A stretch of 64,000 bases of DNA. Origin: Irineochytrium annulatum. Taxonomy: Eukaryota > Chytridiomycota > Chytridiomycetes > Chytridiales > Chytridiaceae. Each line of letters starts with the position of its first letter. Within the stretch, counting starts at the first letter, position 1. Location of the stretch: positions 1 through 64,000 of the forward strand of contig JADGJL010000026.1 in assembly GCA_027600665.1 (NCBI GenBank), read 5' to 3'. The notes below the pieces were generated by a model. It was not told the origin of the DNA and ran no database searches. It was given only the letters and a program-made list of their open reading frames with translations. Below are positions 1 through 10,973 of this stretch, one piece after another. The translations under genes were made by a program, and so were the position numbers.

Positions 1-181
1 GATGCGAGAGAGAAAGATGTTTATTAATATACTTCTTCGTACTTCAATCATGTGCGCACCTATGAGCCCGTCAAGTAAATGCGAGAGAGAAAGATGAGGG
101 AAAAGAAGTGGTGTCTTACACTTAAATGTGTTTGCAAACCTGCGCCACGGGGCGGATCACGACTCTCCCCCAATCTTAACA
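1..181 (-). repeat. 3' LTR (clipped at window edge)
   Basis: It matches 5206-5386 with two substitutions and ends in ATCTTAACA, the inverse of the TGTTAAGAT that opens the other LTR. Element-sense transcription enters it from position 181 downward. The pol reading frame runs through the polypurine tract and stops inside this LTR at 157-159, so the last RNase H residues are encoded by U3. Confidence 0.95.
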
Positions 182-190
182 CTCCCCCTG
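182..190 (-). promoter_or_regulatory. Polypurine tract
   Basis: On the minus strand CAGGGGGAG sits immediately upstream of the 3' LTR start (TGTTAAGAT). This is the expected position and composition for the plus-strand primer. It is also coding: the C-terminal end of pol reads through it. Confidence 0.75.
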
Positions 191-3100
191 AGCAGCCCCA
201 GGCGCGCCCGATGCGGCTCGAACTGCACCCACCGAAGTCCCTTGGTGAGGATATCAGCGACCATGGCGGCGGTGGAGCAATGCTCGACGACCACGAAGCG
301 CTGCCGCACCATTTCGCGTATAAAATGGTATTTGATATCCATATACTTGATCTTGTTGCTTTCGGCACCTTTGCGAGCGTTAAGGACTGCGGCCATGTTG
401 TCACACCATATCGTAGTCAGGCCTGTGGCCGGGTAGCCGATCCAATGCATGATATTACATAGCCACAGGACCTCTTTGAGGACGGCGTGCATCGCAATAG
501 TCTCTGCAGCCGTGGTTGAGTCCGCGACAGTTGGCTGGCGCTTGCTGATAGTCACGATAGCCGCGCCGGCCAGGATGACAACAGCACCCGTTGTCGATCA
601 ACGCGTTTCGATATCACCAGCAAAATCTGAATCCCCATACGCTGATACCGTCGCGTGCACCGGCTCATTAGGATCATCGACGAACCTGAGTTGAAGATCC
701 CGCGTAGCATTAAGGTAGGCGAGGAGATGCTGCGCCATCTGCCAGTGGATAATTCGCGGACGGGTCGCGAAACGAGCCAACTTATTTGTGGCGTACGCGA
801 TATCGGGCCGCGTGTGAACAAGGTATTGAAACTTGCCGACGAGTCTCCAATAGTTCCGAGTCGCCATGTGGGCCTGATCACTCGGCGTCGGGTCGCTCAC
901 CACACCAAACTCCGAGTCGTGAGAGGCGTCCCACGGAATACGCCGCTTTTGCAGCGGCTGCTCGTGAAACTCGGAGAGGATGGACTCGAGGTAGGGATGC
1001 TGATCGATTGTAGTATAGTCTTCCCCGAGATCAAGTCTCATGCCCAGATAAAGGCGGAGGTCACCGAGGCGCTTAATCTTGAAGCGGCTCTCGATCTGGT
1101 CGAGAAGCTTATCCGCTTCTGCCTCAATGGCCTTGTCGACAAAGATAGCCCCGTCATCGGTGTGCACACTCACGAGCAGCAGGTGACCATCGACTTCCTT
1201 TCGGTAGAGGCATTCCTCGACCGGACAACTCGTCAGGCCGCATTCTTCCACAAGAAATCGATCAAACATCATGCGCCACAGGTGCCCTGCCTGGCGTAGG
1301 CCATAAAGCGCTTTAAGTAGTCTCAGAAACCAGTGCTCTTTTCCAGCAACCACCATGCCGCGAGGCTGCCGCATGTATATGTCGTGATCGCTGCCGGCGT
1401 TCAAGAACGCCCCTGTTATGTCAAATTGTCGAGATTTCATTCGGCGCTTCGTGCGAATGCCAACGAGTGTGCGGAAGCTGTTCAGGTGTGGCGTAGCTGC
1501 AAATGTTCGTGTGAAGTCAATCCCCTCCGTCTGCTTTCCGACTAATCGCGCTTTATACTCCTCCTCCATCGTGTCGTCGTTCACCTTGACTTTCAGCACC
1601 CAGATTGATGGGACAGCCTTCCAACCCGGCGGGAGAGGCACAAGTTCGAACACGTTCATGCCCAGCATCTGATCATACTCCTTCTGGCATGCCGCTCGCC
1701 ATTTCGGATCCTTCATTGCTTCTCGAATATTCCTCGGGCCGTCCTTAGTCAGATTAGCTGTCCCCAGACGACTCTGTAGCTCCGGTGTCAGAGCGGACGT
1801 GAACTCTTCATCGGATATTTCAATTTCCGCGTCCCAAGTTCCTGTCGGCATCGCTATGGAGCTCAGCGCACTGGCGCCAGGGTGTTCCGACTTGCGCTGG
1901 TCCGTTTTCGCAGCCTTATAGTACGGCAGCGACGGGGCGTCCTCAAGGACCTCCCCCATCGTCAAGCTCCGAGTTAATTTGACGCCTTTCAGCCGCTTGG
2001 ACTGCCGCAACGGCGGCGTAGGGTCTGTCGGCGTCGAGGGCGTTGGGGTCGCGGGGGCCTCCCGTGCCTCCTCCCACTGGGGGGACGGCGAGCGAACGTC
2101 CGGTAGCGGTGAGAGCGTCAACGGCGGCTCATCCGGTGGCGAAGCCGATGCGTGCGGCGTTGGAGTACGCGAGGCAGAGGCTGGTTGCGGTGTCTCCGTC
2201 CTAGATGACGAGGACCTGCTGTCCTCAGACGATGCTGGCGCCTGGTCTTCCTCCTCACTGTCGTCCCTACTGCTTTCAGGCCGGTACGATTCCGTGTCGG
2301 CGCTGTCGCGGCCACTTGCAGTGACCCTCGTGGTGCGAATAGCAACCGTCTCCTCCTCTTCGTCCTCGCCCCAGGTTGTCAGACGAACGCCGATAGGTTC
2401 ATCGTCAGCCTCGTTAATGATAAACTGATTCTCGACAAAGTATGCGTCGCGTGTGAGAATGACCGCATTTGGATCCAGATCGTCAGTCAGGATTTTGTAG
2501 CCTCCTGAGTGGCGAATTGGGAATCCATCTGGGTCAGTGTAGCCAATGAATCTTCCCTTGACAGCTCTGTCGCCAAGTTTCTCATGCCGTCGATCGCTCG
2601 GAAGGATGCGCGCGTAGGCGAGACAGAATGGGACTCGAAATCCAACGACGTTGGGACGCTTCATGGTCAGGCGCTCGTAGGGCGTGGCCTGCGCTCCCCC
2701 GCGAACTGTGCGGTTGTTAATATAGCATTTGGTAACCATCGCATCCGCCCATAACGACAGCGGTGCCTTGGCCGCGATGAGTGCCGCCCTCACCGAGTCC
2801 ATACTGGTTCGAAACCAGCGCTCAATCTCTCCGTTCGACGAATGCGCCTCCATGAGCGTTCCGATGACCGTGATGCCTGCCTCTTCGCAAACTGCCAGCA
2901 AGGAACCGTTGCTACCAAGCTCCCCGGCCTGATCGACATGCCACTCAAGCACCTTTTCGCCAGATACACTCTCGAGCCACTTCCTGGCCCACCTAACCTT
3001 CTCGACAATGTGCTGACGATTTCGACAGGGATAGCCGAACTTAAAGTCGCAGTTCCGGACTGAAAAGCCCAGGAAGTATCTCGACCCATTTAACGATTCC

Positions 3101-3967
3101 ATTGTAACATAGAGAACGTCTATCGAGACCACCGCAAGAAGCTTGGACGAGCGCGAAGCCGCGGTAGGATACGGTCTCGAAGTGATCTTCCCGAGGACGC
3201 AGGGGGGGCTCACAAAACATGTCCGGGTCGATGGCCCCTGCAATCTTCATTCCATGTACAGCCGGCAGAGTGCGCATGAGCGAGCGCGTGTCAACGTGCA
3301 TAAAGCGCTCGTGCCATAGGCGCTGATCATGAGTGGTTGGTATTCCTGCACCGAGGTGAGCCGTAGCAATTGCCCCAAGATCCAATTGAAACATCCCGGC
3401 TTTACCAGCACCGGAGACCCTCGATTGATGGCTCGCAGAGCGGTCCAACACGCCAACATGGCACGTCATGCTCTCGTGGTCAAACCATAAGTCGTGGCCG
3501 TCGCGCATCAACTTGTAGACTGAGAATAAAGTGTGGGCGGCTTTAGGCACATGATGAACGTTTGAGATCGTGAAAGATCCATCATCCGTGGTAACATCCC
3601 CGACTCTCCCTGATCCCACCATCTGTGATCCGTTGGCCACAGTAAAACTCTTCGTGCGCGCAGCAGGTCTGGTGTTGCAGAGATCCGTTGCAGGGGTGAG
3701 ATGATCCGAACACCCCGAGTCGAGGTAACCGATCCGTGAGGACACATCGCACGACGGTTTAGCAACGGCCATCGCATATGATCGCTCGAGGTCGCAATAT
3801 TGATCCATGTTTATTTGAGTGAATGCCGAACAGAAGTCTACATCCTCGTCCCCAGCGATGGCGCCTGACACCATGAATGCTGATCCCTCGTCGATCTCCC
3901 AACCATCTGAGTCCACCGGCAAGGGAACGGCTTTGACAGCATTCGCTTGTGCTTTGCTCGCAGTCTG

Positions 3968-4198
3968 CGGCTTGTCGCTGGCGAGGTTCACTCGGACCTC
4001 CCGATCACCAAGGGTGTGAGTGGCCGCTATGGCTGCCCTAGCCGCGGCAAGCTCCTTAAATGTCACGAAGCCGTATCCCCGTGACTTGCCGCTTTGCGCG
4101 TCACGGACCACAAACGCATCCTCTATGGCTCCGAAGCGACTAAGTAGCCTGCGGTAGTCGTCCTCGTCTGCCCTTCCCATACCTCCAACGAAGACCAT
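3968..4198 (-). other. RRM domain encoded in the copia gag region
   Basis: About 77 residues form a canonical RNA-recognition motif. RNP2 reads VFVGGM at the start and RNP1 reads RGYGFVTF about 35 residues later, with the expected spacing and an alternating beta-alpha pattern. It lies between the Gag capsid-like region and the protease, exactly where copia elements normally carry a CCHC zinc knuckle. No CCHC motif is seen in the upstream Gag segments. An RNA-packaging role in place of the zinc knuckle is inferred. Confidence 0.88.
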
Positions 4199-5160
4199 CC
4201 GGGGGTCGTCCTTCCTTGTCGCTCCATGCGATACCCGTGGCGCGGAAGACGATCCCTGAGCCTGAAGGGCAGTGGCACCCCTCCTCGCCTCACGGCGTTG
4301 GCCTTGTTGACCCCATCCACCGCGTCATCCATCCCACGAATCGACGCTATCATCATGTCAAAGTCTCCGACCGCTCCGTCCGCCTTAAACGTGTTGATCC
4401 AATCCTTGACGTTAACGAGACCGTTTTGGAAGTACCGGGCGAGGTCCTTCTTAAACGTCCTCGCTGTCGCCGCATCCGCCCCAGGATAACCCAGTTGTGC
4501 TAGCTGCGCGACTATGCGCTGCACCCGCTCTCCGTACCGCATGTCTGTCTCATTGCCGCCCTAGCACAGGTTCGAGAGCTCGTCGCGCAGGCGGTCGATC
4601 CTAGTATCGTTGACTCCCACCACCCTCGTGACAATCCTGTCCCAGCATTCGCGGGCCGACAGGGTCATATCCAAAAGGCTCGTAGCGAGATCCGCGCAAA
4701 CGTGCTGACGAATGATCTCCTTAATCACTAGATCCACCCTCGTCCACAGAATCTGCTGCTCACGTAAACTCTTAGGGTCGATCAGGACTCCGTCCTTCTC
4801 CTCGTAGAGACGTGTGGTCCCGTTCTCCTCCCTATCATCCTTGGAGGGCAAAGGAATACCCACGATCTTGATGGCGGCATGACTTCCCGCTCCGACGATC
4901 GCCGTTTTGAATAGGTGATCGGATGCCTGGAGAGCGTAGAGGTATGACGAGTTGATCTCGACCGTCCGATTAATGTAGGATGTGATGCCGAACTGGAACA
5001 TGGGCAGATCGACGCCTTTCTTGCGATCCGCGAATACGAGGATCTTGACGCCAGACTTGGGGTGGAGGCCCGCAGCGACCTCCTTCAGGTGCGACATCGC
5101 GCGTGGATAGGAAACGAGACGACAGGTAAGGTGAGACGAGACGATCTTCCGTTCCCTCCT

Positions 5161-5178
5161 GAGCCAAGACTCTTAATC
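5161..5178 (-). promoter_or_regulatory. Candidate primer-binding site, half-tRNA-Lys(CUU) type
   Basis: Directly next to the 5' LTR, the plus strand reads GAGCCAAGACTCTTAATC. Its core GACTCTTAATC is the anticodon arm of tRNA-Lys(CUU): loop CUCUUAA with anticodon CUU, closed by GA/UC. There is no match to the 3' TGG-type site used by most LTR elements. Drosophila copia and Ty5 are known to prime from a cleaved initiator-tRNA anticodon arm. A 5'-half tRNA-Lys primer is inferred by analogy. Confidence 0.55.
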
Positions 5179-5386
5179 TGTTAAGATCTATGAGCCCGTC
5201 AAGTAGATGCGAGAGAGAAAGATGTTTATTAATATACTTCTTCGTACTTCAATCATGTGCGCACCTATGAGCCCGTCAAGTAGATGCGAGAGAGAAAGAT
5301 GAGGGAAAAGAAGTGGTGTCTTACATTTAAATGTGTTTGCAAACCTGCGCCACGGGGCGGATCACGACTCTCCCCCAATCTTAACA
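5179..5386 (-). repeat. 5' LTR, complete, 208 bp
   Basis: It begins TGTTAAGAT and ends ATCTTAACA, a perfect 9-bp terminal inverted repeat of the TG...CA type. It contains an internal 37-bp direct duplication, 5188-5224 and 5265-5301, with a 77-bp period that covers a GA-rich stretch. In element orientation this LTR would hold promoter and polyadenylation signals; none was assigned with confidence. Confidence 0.96.
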
Positions 5387-5506
5387 TTACTCGCCTTCCG
5401 ATAAGCTATTGTTGCATGTAGCGTAGTCCGGACTTGCACAAGCCAACGTTCTGGAAGTTGATGAAAGGGTGTTTGACTGACAGCGTTACTCTGACAAACT
5501 TAGGCG

Positions 5507-6708
5507 ATGGATGACTTGGACAAGCTCCTCGGGGAGCTCACATGTGCGGTCGAAGACATGCCCACCAGTCTCTCGGCTGCGACAACGCCGGACTTCTCGA
5601 ACGAGCAGCAGAACCCGCTTTTCCAAAAACAACGCTCGCGGGCCGCTTCGATCGCACCGAAGGCCGTGACAGACTCGAATGAGACCGTGACAAACACCGA
5701 GGAAGACCCCTGGAGCTTCACAAACAACCTCCTCGACTCGCGAGCGTCGGTCAGGCCGCTCCAGCCGTGGGCGCGGTCGAGGACAAAGTCGGCGACGGAC
5801 CAGCCCACCTTGGACTCCGCCGCGAGGGCGGCGGCGGATGCCACGCTGCCGAAGAAGATCGTCGCGGCCCCGATGTGCGCAAAGTGCAGGGAGCCCATCA
5901 CGGGCCCGAACGTCGTCAAGGCCATGGGCGGGAAGACGTTTCACCCGGATCACTTCATCTGCGCCGCGAGGGAGTGCGGGAAGGCCATCATGGGATCGCC
6001 GTTCGTGGAGAAGGACGGGTTGCCGTACTGCACGCCTTGCTTTCACAGCCACTTTTCCCCGCGTTGCGCGTTTTGCTCTGATCCCATTGTCGATGTTAGT
6101 AATTGGACTGTTTGTTGCAAACTGAGATGGCTAACAAGTTCCCCCAGCGATGCATTAGCGCACTCGGCATGAATTTCCACCCGGAGCACTTCTTTTGTGG
6201 CCAATGCGGCGTTGTCTTTGGCCCCGGACAGCCGTTTCTCGAAGTTGGGGGGAAAGCTTATTGCCAGGTCGACTACATGAGTCTGTTTGCTCAGCGTTGC
6301 GCGGATTGCGATGGACCTTTGGTCGAGGATTATGTGTCGGCGTGCGGAAGAACATTCCATCTCAAATGCTTCCGATGCACGGTAAGAAAACTTTAGTGCC
6401 TTGTCCTGACGAGTCCTCAGGAACCTGATTGCGGGGCACTGTTATCGCCGACTGGATTTTTCGAACTCCAGGACAAACCTGTCTGTGAGAAGCACTACAA
6501 CGCACGCCGCGAGGCCGTTTGCTCCTCGTGCCAGAAGATGTTGGTCGGGTCCTGCGTGAAGGCGGACGGAAGTAAGTACCACAAGGGATGTTGGGTTTGC
6601 TCGTTTTGCAGGAAGGGTTTGCCGGATTCGAGCACATCGAAGGACGGCTATAAAAACCGGTCTGGAAGGCCATATTGCAACGGATGTTTTTTGAAGCTTT
6701 ACGGTTGA
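5507..6708 (+). CDS. Paxillin-like four-LIM adaptor protein
   Basis: Exons are 5507-6094, 6148-6381 and 6421-6708 (369 aa). The two introns are 53 and 39 nt, both phase 0, the first with a CTAAC branch site. The protein opens with MDDLDKLLGEL, which fits the paxillin LD motif (LDxLLxxL). A low-complexity linker is followed from about residue 120 by four consecutive LIM domains, each with the CxxC...HxxC zinc pattern, and the protein ends just after LIM4. Four C-terminal LIMs plus an N-terminal LD motif match paxillin and fungal Pxl1 proteins, scaffolds linking actin and Rho signalling to the membrane. An AATAAA lies at 6713-6718. The copia LTR ends about 120 bp upstream and may have displaced promoter sequence. 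Confidence 0.9.
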
Positions 6709-6926: not shown

Positions 6927-9900
6927 ATGGTCAAAGGAAGCGACTTCAAGGAGCTCAACGAGAATGACCTTCTCGCGAGCGCCCCCATCAACGTCCGCGA
7001 GGAGGGCATCTCTAGCACCCACCACAGCACGATCGTGACACCCGTGAGACTCACTTACTTAACTCTCCTCGAGCCAAACCCGCGTCGTTTCTAACTCCAG
7101 CGTGTTTCCGCAGGCCAAGCGCGGCGAGGCCCACGGGAAGAAGGGCAAGGTCAAGCGCCTCGACGTCGAGGAGCACCTCATGACGGTGGAGCAGGTCTGC
7201 GAGCTCCACAAGACCGAGGTGGACCTGGCCAAGCCCGCGAGCTCGATCGGCCTTAGGGCCGGCGTCGCGACCGAGAGGCTCATCACGTACGGGCCCAACG
7301 TCTTGAAGCCGCCCCCAAGGAAGCACTGGATCTTGCGCTTCATGGAGTGCCTGCTCAACTTGTTCAACATCCTGCTGATGATTGCTGCCACCGGGACCTA
7401 CATCTTGTTCATTATGGACCCGTTGAACAACTTCCAGAACGTAAGTTCTCTGTAAGCGTCGAAGTATACGCGTTAAACTTGGCATTTTCCAGTCTTACAT
7501 CGGCGCAATTCTGTTCGGTGTCGCGTTTATTAACGCCGGCATCGAGTTCTACCAGCTCCAGAAGAGTGCGGCCATCCTCGACTCCTTCATGGTACGCGTT
7601 CCCCACCCATCGCACTTCCTTCGTACTAACTCGTTGTTTACAGAACATGGTCCCTTCCAAGTCCAACGTTATCCGCCACGGTCTGTCCCGCCAAGTCCCG
7701 GCCGCCGAGCTCGTCCCTGGAGACGTCGTCTTCATCCGCATGGGAGACAAGATCCCCGCCGACGTGTACCTCTTCAACGTTTCCGACTTAAAGGTGGACA
7801 ACTCGTCGTTGACGGGCGAGTCTGAGCCGCAGGAGCGCAAGCCGTCCAACAACCAGAAGAACCCCCTCGAGGCGACCAACCTTGCCTTCAACGGGACCCT
7901 TGCCGTCAGCGGTAAGTTTAACGCATGTAATTACCACGCTGGAGTTGTACTTAGTGCATCTGTGTGACAGGTGAGGCATACGGCATTGTCATCCGCACCG
8001 GCGACAGCACTGTCCTCGGCCAGATCGCCGGCCTTACCACCTCCGAAAGCAAGCGCGAGTCCCCACTCGCCCTGGAGATCGAGCGCTTCTGCAAGATCAT
8101 CTCGTTCTTCGCCTTCTCGACAGCCGTCACTTTCGTAAGTTTACATCCAATTCTCGGCAGCTGGTATAAAGTGCTAATATATTTTCGATGCAGTTCTTCA
8201 TCTGCCTCTTCCGCTCCGGAAACTTGAACTACTCGCTCTCGTTTGCCATCGGTATCCTCGTCGCCTGGGTTCCCCAGGGCCTGCCCGCTACAGTCACCAT
8301 GCTCCTGACCATCGCTGCCAAGCGCATGGCCGGCATGAACGTGCTCGTGAAGGACCTCCAAGGTGTCGAGACTCTCGGCGCCATTACCATGCTCTGCACC
8401 GATAAGACCGGAACCCTGACCCGCGTAAGTTCTTGACTTCATATTTTTCCAAGCGATGTTTCTCATTTCGAGTTGCGTAGAACCAAATGACTGTAACCAA
8501 CATCTGGTGCGATGGAGTTATGTGGATCGCGAACGGCAAGCCCGACGAGAAGGAGAAAGAGAAGGAGCTTAGCCTAACCGCATGCGGAGTCCCGGAAATC
8601 ATGTACACCAGCGCTCTGTGCAGCCGTGCGGTAAGTGATCTCCTTGCTTCGATGGAGGGGAAGATATTAACTAACCCTCGCAGAGGTTCAACCGCACGGA
8701 TGTCGCCGTCGAAAAGCGCGAGATTATCGGCGACGCCACCGAGTCCGGCCTCCTCCGCTTCGTCGCCGTCAAGCTATCCAACTACGACAAGATTAACGAC
8801 GAGTTCCCTAAGGTCTTCGAGATTCCCTTTAACAGCGACACCAAGACGCACATGAGCATTAACAAGAAGGCTCACGCCGGCGGCTCCCTGACCCTCTTCA
8901 TGAAGGGTGCGCCCGAGCGTATCCTCCGCAATTGCTCGACCATCCTCAGGAACGGCGAGTCCATCCCAATCACGACGGAGCACAAGAACGAGTTCACGAT
9001 CGCGTACGAGAAGATGGCTGGAAAGGGGCACCGTGTACTCGCGTTCGCGCAGCTGCTGATGCCCGAGGGCCAGTTCCCGGCCGACACCGTGTTCACCAAG
9101 GAGCAGATCAACGCCTTCAACTACTCGGACATGGGCCTCTGCTTTGTCGGCTTGACCAGTCTCGAGGACCCGCCTAAACACGGCGTCCGTGAGGCCGTCG
9201 GCTCGCTCCGCACCGCCGGCATCAAGGTCGTTATGGTCACCGGTGACCACCCCCTGACCGCCGAGGCCATCGGCCGCAAGATCAACCTAATGATCGGCGA
9301 TACCAAGGAGCGTCTAGCTAAGAAGACGGGCCGCGACATCGACGACATCCGCGAGTCCGAGTGCCCTGCTATCGTGATCCACGGCGAGACGATCCCGGAC
9401 CTGACGGAGGACGACTGGGACAACATCTTCTCTAAGGATGAGATTATCTTCGCCCGCACGAGCCCCAAGAACAAGCTTGACATCGTCAAGCGCGCCCAGC
9501 AGCTCGGCCACATCGTCGGCGTGACGGGCGACGGTGTCAACGACTCTCCCGCACTCAAGAAGGCCGACCTTGGCATTGCTATGAATAACTCCGGGTCGGA
9601 CGTCTCGAAGGAGGCCGCCGCCATGATTCTCCTCGATGACAACTTCGCCACCATCGTCCACGGCATCACTGAGGGCCGCCTGATCTTCATGAACCTCAAG
9701 AAGTCCATCCAGTACGCCGTGACTCACATCATCCCGGAGGTCATCCCCTACCTCCTCTACGTCGTCGTACCTATCCCGCTTGCACTGACCGCAATCCAAA
9801 TCCTCGTCATCGACCTCGGCTTCGAGCTCTTCGCGGCTCTGTCCTTCGCCTGGGAGCCCCCGGAGACTAAGGAGGGGCTCATGATCATGCCCCCGCGTAA

Positions 9901-10973
9901 GCCCGTGACGGCCGAGACGATCAAGAAGCTCCGTCGCAAGCTGATCGAGCGCCGGAATGCTGGACTCCTCCCGCCGCCCCCGGACCCGGAGAGGGGCGAG
10001 GACGAGGACGAGTTCGCCATCCCGTCGCGGTGGAGGCGGTACGCGCACGAGCTGAGAATGATGACGTACGCTCGCTACTGGCAGGAGCTATTCGGGAGGC
10101 AGGACGGCGAGGTGCTTGTGGATGGGGAGGTGCTCAGCTGGAGTTACTTGGAGGCGGGCTCGTGGGAGTGCTTGGGCGCGCTGACGACATTCTTCACGGT
10201 GCTTTGGTACTCGTTCGGGATTGATCCCGTCACGGCTTCGAATGCGCAGGCTGCGGGCGGTTACTACATGCCACACTCGCCAAACATGACGCTGTACGAT
10301 GGCTACCAGCTGGTGAGCTCGCTGCGACCTTTACTTTGTAAACGAGATAGGTAACTGACGCGATTCTTCTCCTAGCCTGGTGACCAGCAGTGGGAGGGCA
10401 TCAAGCAGAGCCAGTCGGCGTTTTACCTGTCGGTCCTCATCATTCAGATGTGGAACCTGTTCTGCTGCAAGGCTAGGATCCGTCTGCCGTTCGGGAGGTT
10501 CATGGTCAAGTAAGTAATTGCTTGGGACATTTGCGAAAGCAAAGCTGTCCATGCTGACTTCCCTGGTCTCACAGGAACGAGAAGACTTGGTACTCGCTCC
10601 TAGCAGGCCTCTTCTTCGGCGTCCTCATCGTCTACACCCCGTTCATGAACGGTTCGTATTCCCTCCCGTTATTTGTCAATCACAAATGCTAAGTATCTTC
10701 CTTCAGTGATTTTTGGTACCTCGATGTCCTTGCACCCGAGCTACCTCGCCGTCCCGTTCGGCTTCGGCTTCGTCCTCCTCGTCTACAGGGCGCTTCGCCG
10801 CGTGTTCCTCTCAACCGTGGCCCCGGCTAAGAGGAACAAGGCGATTGAAAACCTCCAGATGTACCCAACGCGCTGGTCTTTGGTAAGAAAAATTGCATTC
10901 GGGTAAACCTTGATGGTGTTTGAGCTGACCAACTCGTCTGTAGACCAACGTCACCGAGGACGCTGAGGCTTAA
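6927..10973 (+). CDS. Type IIC-like P-type ATPase (alkali cation pump)
   Basis: Twelve exons give 1133 aa: 6927-7043, 7114-7440, 7493-7591, 7644-7911, 7971-8134, 8194-8424, 8481-8630, 8684-10312, 10376-10509, 10575-10651, 10707-10882 and 10944-10973. It has an LTGES actuator motif, the phosphorylation site [10 protein letters not shown] (Asp about residue 395), KGAPERIL nucleotide-binding and [13 protein letters not shown] hinge motifs, and about ten membrane segments, all in the order of Na+/K+-ATPase alpha subunits. Ion-site residues differ: M4 reads PQGLPATVT instead of PEGL, M5 [10 protein letters not shown] instead of SNIPE, and M6 IDLGFELF instead of IDLGTDM. It is therefore probably an alkali-cation ATPase of the animal-like IIC or fungal ACU-type clade; transport specificity cannot be read from sequence. 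Confidence 0.92.

Follow-up and report, generated by a model that had tools for sequence, protein, structure and literature searches.

The first 64,000 nucleotides of contig C281 from Irineochytrium annulatum (JADGJL010000026.1; this whole stretch is referred to below as the window) begin with a minus-strand Ty1/copia retrotransposon bounded by long terminal repeats (LTRs). Between its Gag and protease regions lies an RNA recognition motif (RRM, 3971-4201, minus strand), with RNP2 reading VFVGGM (4195-4178) and RNP1 reading RGYGFVTF (4081-4058) in the minus-strand frame 4324-3041. Both motifs had been picked out in the first-pass annotation, whose placement of the domain at 3968-4198 fits ours closely. 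Pfam RRM_1 matches the 427-residue translation of this frame at an E-value of 4.4e-11 (42.9 bits, against a cut-off of 20.7) and the isolated 81-residue piece at 2.1e-12.

The domain order of the window element is that of copia: Gag, RRM, protease, integrase, reverse transcriptase (RT) and RNase H, all on the minus strand. The Gag capsid region (4330-5172), which is homologous to the Gag of the other RRM loci described below, is read from two open frames (5172-4561 and 4560-4123, with the first in-frame Met at 5097) and contains one in-frame stop. Downstream of the RRM come the protease active-site motif LDSGC (3701-3736, read from the frame; equivalent position in A1) and, in the same frame as the RRM, the Pol_BBD beta-barrel domain (3497-3727, Pfam 4.1e-10). 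These are followed by a weak gag_pre-integrs match in the pre-integrase region (3209-3337, 0.022; 6.2e-4 in the copy on contig C411), an integrase core with D, D and E positions (2815-3126) recognised by motifs only, the Pfam rve model giving no match, and the SH3_retrovirus domain of integrase (2422-2661, 1.7e-9). The copia-type RT (RVT_2, 964-1656) is matched at 7.8e-39, and at 1.0e-42 in the C411 copy. The RNase H region (157-639), split by an in-frame stop, is named from its open frames and a motif and has no Pfam match. Besides the stops in Gag and RNase H, the reading frame of the window copy changes ahead of the RRM and again within the pre-integrase region.

One qualification attaches to the window copy, in which a Gag stop and a frame change just upstream of the RRM leave Gag and the RRM out of a common frame. 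This frame change could be read as the mark of a host RRM gene or pseudogene inserted or fused by chance into this copy alone, which we regard as extremely unlikely. The C411 copy, which agrees with it at 80-81% in the LTR and 83-87% in protein, carries the same domain and has its frame break at another place; six further loci of the genome (C228, C1046, C940, C148, C352 and C460) hold an RRM, or a stretch resembling one, in this position between Gag and protease, and the RRM of C281 and C411 is under purifying selection (see below). The seven further loci rule out a nested host gene or an artefact of a single broken copy. In C228, Gag, RRM and protease share one natural 541-residue frame (5068-6690), and the RRM is also in one frame with Gag in C352 and with the end of Gag in C1046. 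The proposal that Gag carries an RRM at the place of the zinc knuckle is thus borne out by copies other than the one on which it was made, and these Gag-RRM frames speak against the separate host gene or nested insertion that had been named as the alternative. When the genome was searched with the C352 frame and with the C228 frame, the same set of loci came back, C460 with one of the two only.

The unbroken Gag-RRM frames of C352 and C228 could also be taken for a host-domesticated Gag-RRM gene that is no longer a mobile element. We consider this very unlikely, as Pol parts follow the RRM in all the loci that continue beyond it, seven in number (C352 being cut by a contig end), and both C281 and C411 have LTR pairs, a primer binding site (PBS) and a polypurine tract (PPT).

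A CCHC knuckle in copia Gag is usual, not obligatory. No match to C-x2-C-x4-H-x4-C was found in the eight RRM loci (C352 and C460 being cut by contig ends), the stretch searched at the window locus being 1544-5824, so that the knuckle reported as missing from the window Gag did not turn up elsewhere in it or in its relatives. Nor was any other nucleic-acid-binding motif recognised in the RRM-bearing Gags by Pfam together with this expression. The 11 zf-CCHC matches in the genome all lie on contigs other than those of the RRM loci. The copia element on C900 has two Pfam-supported CCHC knuckles at the position taken by the RRM in the RRM loci; it shares with the RRM elements the domain order, Pol_BBD, SH3_retrovirus and RVT_2. 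In contrast, its Gag matches Retrotran_gag_2 and is not recognisably homologous to the RRM-type Gag. The C228 model shows what may be a capsid-like fold. At C365, C148 (near 55 kb) and C995 a CCHC motif was found by expression only and was not reported by Pfam; the first two are labelled CCHC in the RT tree below, in which C995 is not included. Among the remaining copia loci of the genome the Gag end is in view for only some, others being cut short by contig ends. At 65-508, C900 also has a fragment that matches Gag of the C228 type (39%).

Relationships among the RRM-bearing elements

The RRM_1 cut-off is also exceeded in C352 (32.3 bits) and C940 (27.8 bits), and it is not reached in C228 (14.6 bits), C1046 or the partial frames of C148, C460 and C411. 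Weighing RRM_1 against zf-CCHC, as the first-pass annotation had proposed, gives an RRM above the cut-off in three of the loci and zinc knuckles on other contigs. Among solved structures (phmmer against PDB chains) the window RRM is by sequence most like RRMs of the hnRNP A/B type, matching hnRNP A2/B1 at 1.3e-20. Structure models of the window and C228 frames, two of the eight loci, predict the expected beta-alpha-beta-beta-alpha-beta fold, with the window RRM modelled at a predicted local distance difference test (pLDDT) score of about 84-97.

In the window and C352 the aromatics of both motifs, RNP1 and RNP2, are retained. Those of RNP1 are missing in C228 and C1046 (GRAAIIDL) and in C940 and C148 (AAVIKF, AGVIKF), and C228 keeps the RRM fold in its model despite this loss. 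The two groups of RRMs are weakly alike, at a best phmmer E-value of 0.001, and the loss of the RNP1 aromatics agrees with a grouping of C1046 and C148 in the RT tree (support 100/100). At residues of about 318-343 of the C228 frame (5068-6690), just before the RRM, a helix is predicted at low confidence, which might form a coiled coil. L1 ORF1p is laid out as a coiled coil plus an RRM, an arrangement that a coiled coil in C228 would recall.

To compare the Gags without their RRMs, we used profiles of three RRM subgroups (C411/C281; C228/C148/C940; C352), which match one another at 95.6-97.8%. Against the C900 Gag or four database copia proteins (first 300 residues) the same profiles give 0.1-5.5%, whereas the C900 Gag matches the four database proteins at 85.1%; ten column-shuffled controls reached at most 1.4%. 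By sequence comparison, then, the Gags of the RRM loci are mutually homologous and not detectably related to CCHC-type copia Gags.

Input to the RT tree came from 20 of 30 excised loci (46 RVT_2 matches overall) together with 11 database proteins. An RT match was obtained for 27 sequences, and dropping five of fewer than 170 residues left 22 rows. The five RRM rows (C281, C411, C460, C1046 and C148; no RT row came from C352, C940 or C228) are set apart from the 17 others by a branch of length 1.05 that has support 100/100. Shuffling the labels, with labelled rows only counted, equalled this grouping in 14 of 500 cases. Within the RRM clade the three deep branches stand about two changes per site apart, and the clade is therefore old. 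The distinct lineage that had been suggested from the window alone is in this respect upheld.

The weak likeness of the two RRM subgroups raises the question of whether a copia clade tolerant of domains at the end of Gag captured an RRM more than once. A tree of five element RRMs from the eight loci and six host RRMs from five host loci has long branches, and a single group of element RRMs has support of only 43/88 in it, being recovered in 48% of 200 bootstrap trees; the host source that such a tree had been expected to reveal does not emerge from it. We think repeated capture quite unlikely, given one Gag family, one RT clade where this could be tested and one place for the domain, all of which a single gain accounts for in fewer events. 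On the simplest history, the clade's ancestor would have acquired the RRM once.

As to relatives, other copies turned up within this genome, at the seven further loci, and none in the following searches outside it. The protein-database searches scored roughly 8000 candidates sharing most words with the query, at 0.55 to 1.75 times its length. The 882-residue Pol frame recovered 11 copia proteins at 27-32% identity, none of which carries PF00076; the window 427-residue frame recovered a single plant RRM protein; and residues 60-520 of the C1046 frame (Gag end, RRM, protease and pre-integrase) gave nothing at an E-value of 0.01. Scans of viral contigs and of bacterial and archaeal genome contigs gave no relative with the RRM-Gag architecture. 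That these searches found no outside relative of the RRM-Gag copia elements does not imply its absence from other eukaryotes.

Selection on the RRM and its possible role

Nei-Gojobori counts were made for three pairs of loci. Between C281 and C411, 5.0 of 78.0 nonsynonymous and 10.0 of 24.0 synonymous sites are changed in the first half of the RRM (ratio 0.11), and 4.0 of 81.2 against 15.0 of 29.8 in the second half (0.061). Elsewhere in this pair the ratios are 0.19 and 0.20 in the linkers flanking the RRM, 0.098 and 0.174 in Gag, 0.10 in RT and 0.015 in the protease/BBD region. The RRM of C228 and C1046 differs at 10.0 of 158.2 nonsynonymous and 31.0 of 51.8 synonymous sites (0.055), compared with 0.31 and 0.83 in the linkers and 0.145 in protease/BBD. 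Purifying selection acts on the RRM in both pairs, at a dN/dS of 0.055-0.11. These counts indicate that the RRM has been retained with a strength similar to that of Gag and Pol, and that the adjacent linkers drifted more. The RRM parts of C940 and C148, with small counts, gave 0.157 and 0.34 and do not fall below their own frames (0.167 and 0.271).

Based on its position, the basic charge of the window domain, the lack of a knuckle and the selection on it, the RRM is best understood as the nucleic-acid-binding end of Gag. It seems probable that these elements form an old copia lineage whose Gag consists of a capsid and a C-terminal RRM, in place of a CCHC zinc knuckle, with the RRM acting as the nucleocapsid module. 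From this we infer that the Gag RRM packages RNA. In the assembled capsid the RRM would face the particle lumen and there bind the element's own RNA, doing the job of the nucleocapsid, and it may perhaps anneal the tRNA primer as well. Since C940, C148, C228 and C1046 lack the RNP1 aromatics, RNA binding in these elements may use another surface. We lean, with less assurance, towards the fuller proposal that the whole lineage replaced its zinc-knuckle nucleocapsid by an hnRNP-type RRM that packages the genome, and that the branch without the stacking residues evolved a second binding mode.

A host-factor or regulatory role is the strongest competing explanation, especially where the RNP1 aromatics are missing. 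Here the RRM would be a true Gag domain that packages nothing. It would instead bind a host protein or RNA, for instance to help the element's RNA to be exported, translated or localised, or would act as an hnRNP mimic. The resemblance of the window RRM to hnRNP A/B-type domains among solved structures would suit such a role, as would the four loci without RNP1 aromatics, in which the fold (in the C228 model) and selection (in C228/C1046) nevertheless persist. Against this, the RRM occupies the place of the nucleocapsid, is basic, and sits in Gags with no other recognised nucleic-acid-binding motif, and we judge the host role unlikely compared with that of a nucleocapsid module.

Ty1 of yeast belongs to the copia family. 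Its Gag likewise has no canonical zinc-finger nucleocapsid domain, and its RNA-binding part is a C-terminal region that contains basic clusters rather than a folded RRM (PMC4974528). In vertebrate metaviruses and PNMA genes a predicted RNA-binding domain with an RRM-like fold is fused to a retrotransposon capsid, as here, according to PMC11011659. Those are Ty3/gypsy elements, however, in which a domain of putative function, recognised by structure prediction, lies N-terminal to the capsid and the nucleocapsid is kept (RBD-CA-NC), whereas the elements described here have a copia RVT_2, a C-terminal domain, no nucleocapsid knuckle and, in the window copy, an RRM that is canonical by sequence. 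LINE ORF1 proteins use an RRM, often together with CCHC, as an RNA-binding and chaperone module (PMC4120745); these retrotransposons are non-LTR and have no Gag capsid, unlike the window element with its LTR pair. A survey of LTR retroelements describes the nucleocapsid by its number of CCHC arrays, from 0 to 3 (PMC2774666).

The use of an RRM by retrotransposons is already known from LINE ORF1 and, as a predicted RRM-like domain, from metavirus Gag, and what appears from sequence to be new, in this one genome, is an RRM in copia Gag. No report of such a domain was found among titles and the opening parts of abstracts, subscription papers and preprints lying outside the search. The portions available of PMC3248453, PMC2774666, PMC10799480 and PMC4974528 do not mention an RRM, and in those of PMC4427930, PMC3605345 and PMC7602945 the letters occur only in reference lists or as an author's initials. 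If our interpretation is correct, a host-type RRM in the place of the nucleocapsid would mean that this portion of Gag can be exchanged. It would form a parallel to LINE ORF1 and to PNMA-type Gags with their RRM-like domain, and would provide a natural system for asking what a nucleocapsid must do. It may also be of interest to users of Gag capsids as RNA carriers.

Terminal repeats, priming sites and flanking sequence

The window element is a damaged but recent Ty1/copia copy. Its 5' LTR (5179-5386, minus strand) is a repeat of the 3' LTR (1-181, minus strand), whose outer end is cut by the contig start; the 5' copy begins TGTTAAGAT and ends ATCTTAACA, as read from the sequence, giving the TG...CA ends of the pair. 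The two LTRs are identical at 179 of 181 comparable positions, and the insertion therefore looks young. The 3' flank in which a target-site duplication would be sought lies beyond contig C281. The LTRs of the C411 element match each other at 183 of 188 aligned positions, and their outer ends show no visible target-site duplication.

The PBS (5165-5178, minus strand) directly follows the 5' LTR, and its 14 bases are complementary to a tRNA anticodon arm that reads as tRNA Lys(CUU). A first candidate for this arm was not found in the genome, but the 17-base version deduced from the PBS occurs three times (reversed control, 0), in each case within an Rfam tRNA match, at a distance of 26 or 27 bases from where the match starts. 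Drosophila copia uses half-tRNA priming, which the pattern seen here resembles. The PPT (182-190, minus strand) precedes the 3' LTR. LTR-like DNA matches at C903:13039-13206 and C660:4715-4826, contigs on which no Gag or Pol match is listed, are possibly solo LTRs of the same family.

On the plus strand, the sequence adjoining the element (5504-6708) has cysteine-rich frames that by eye resemble a LIM-domain gene, and about 6927-10970 reads, again by eye, as a gene for a P-type cation ATPase that is interrupted by short introns.
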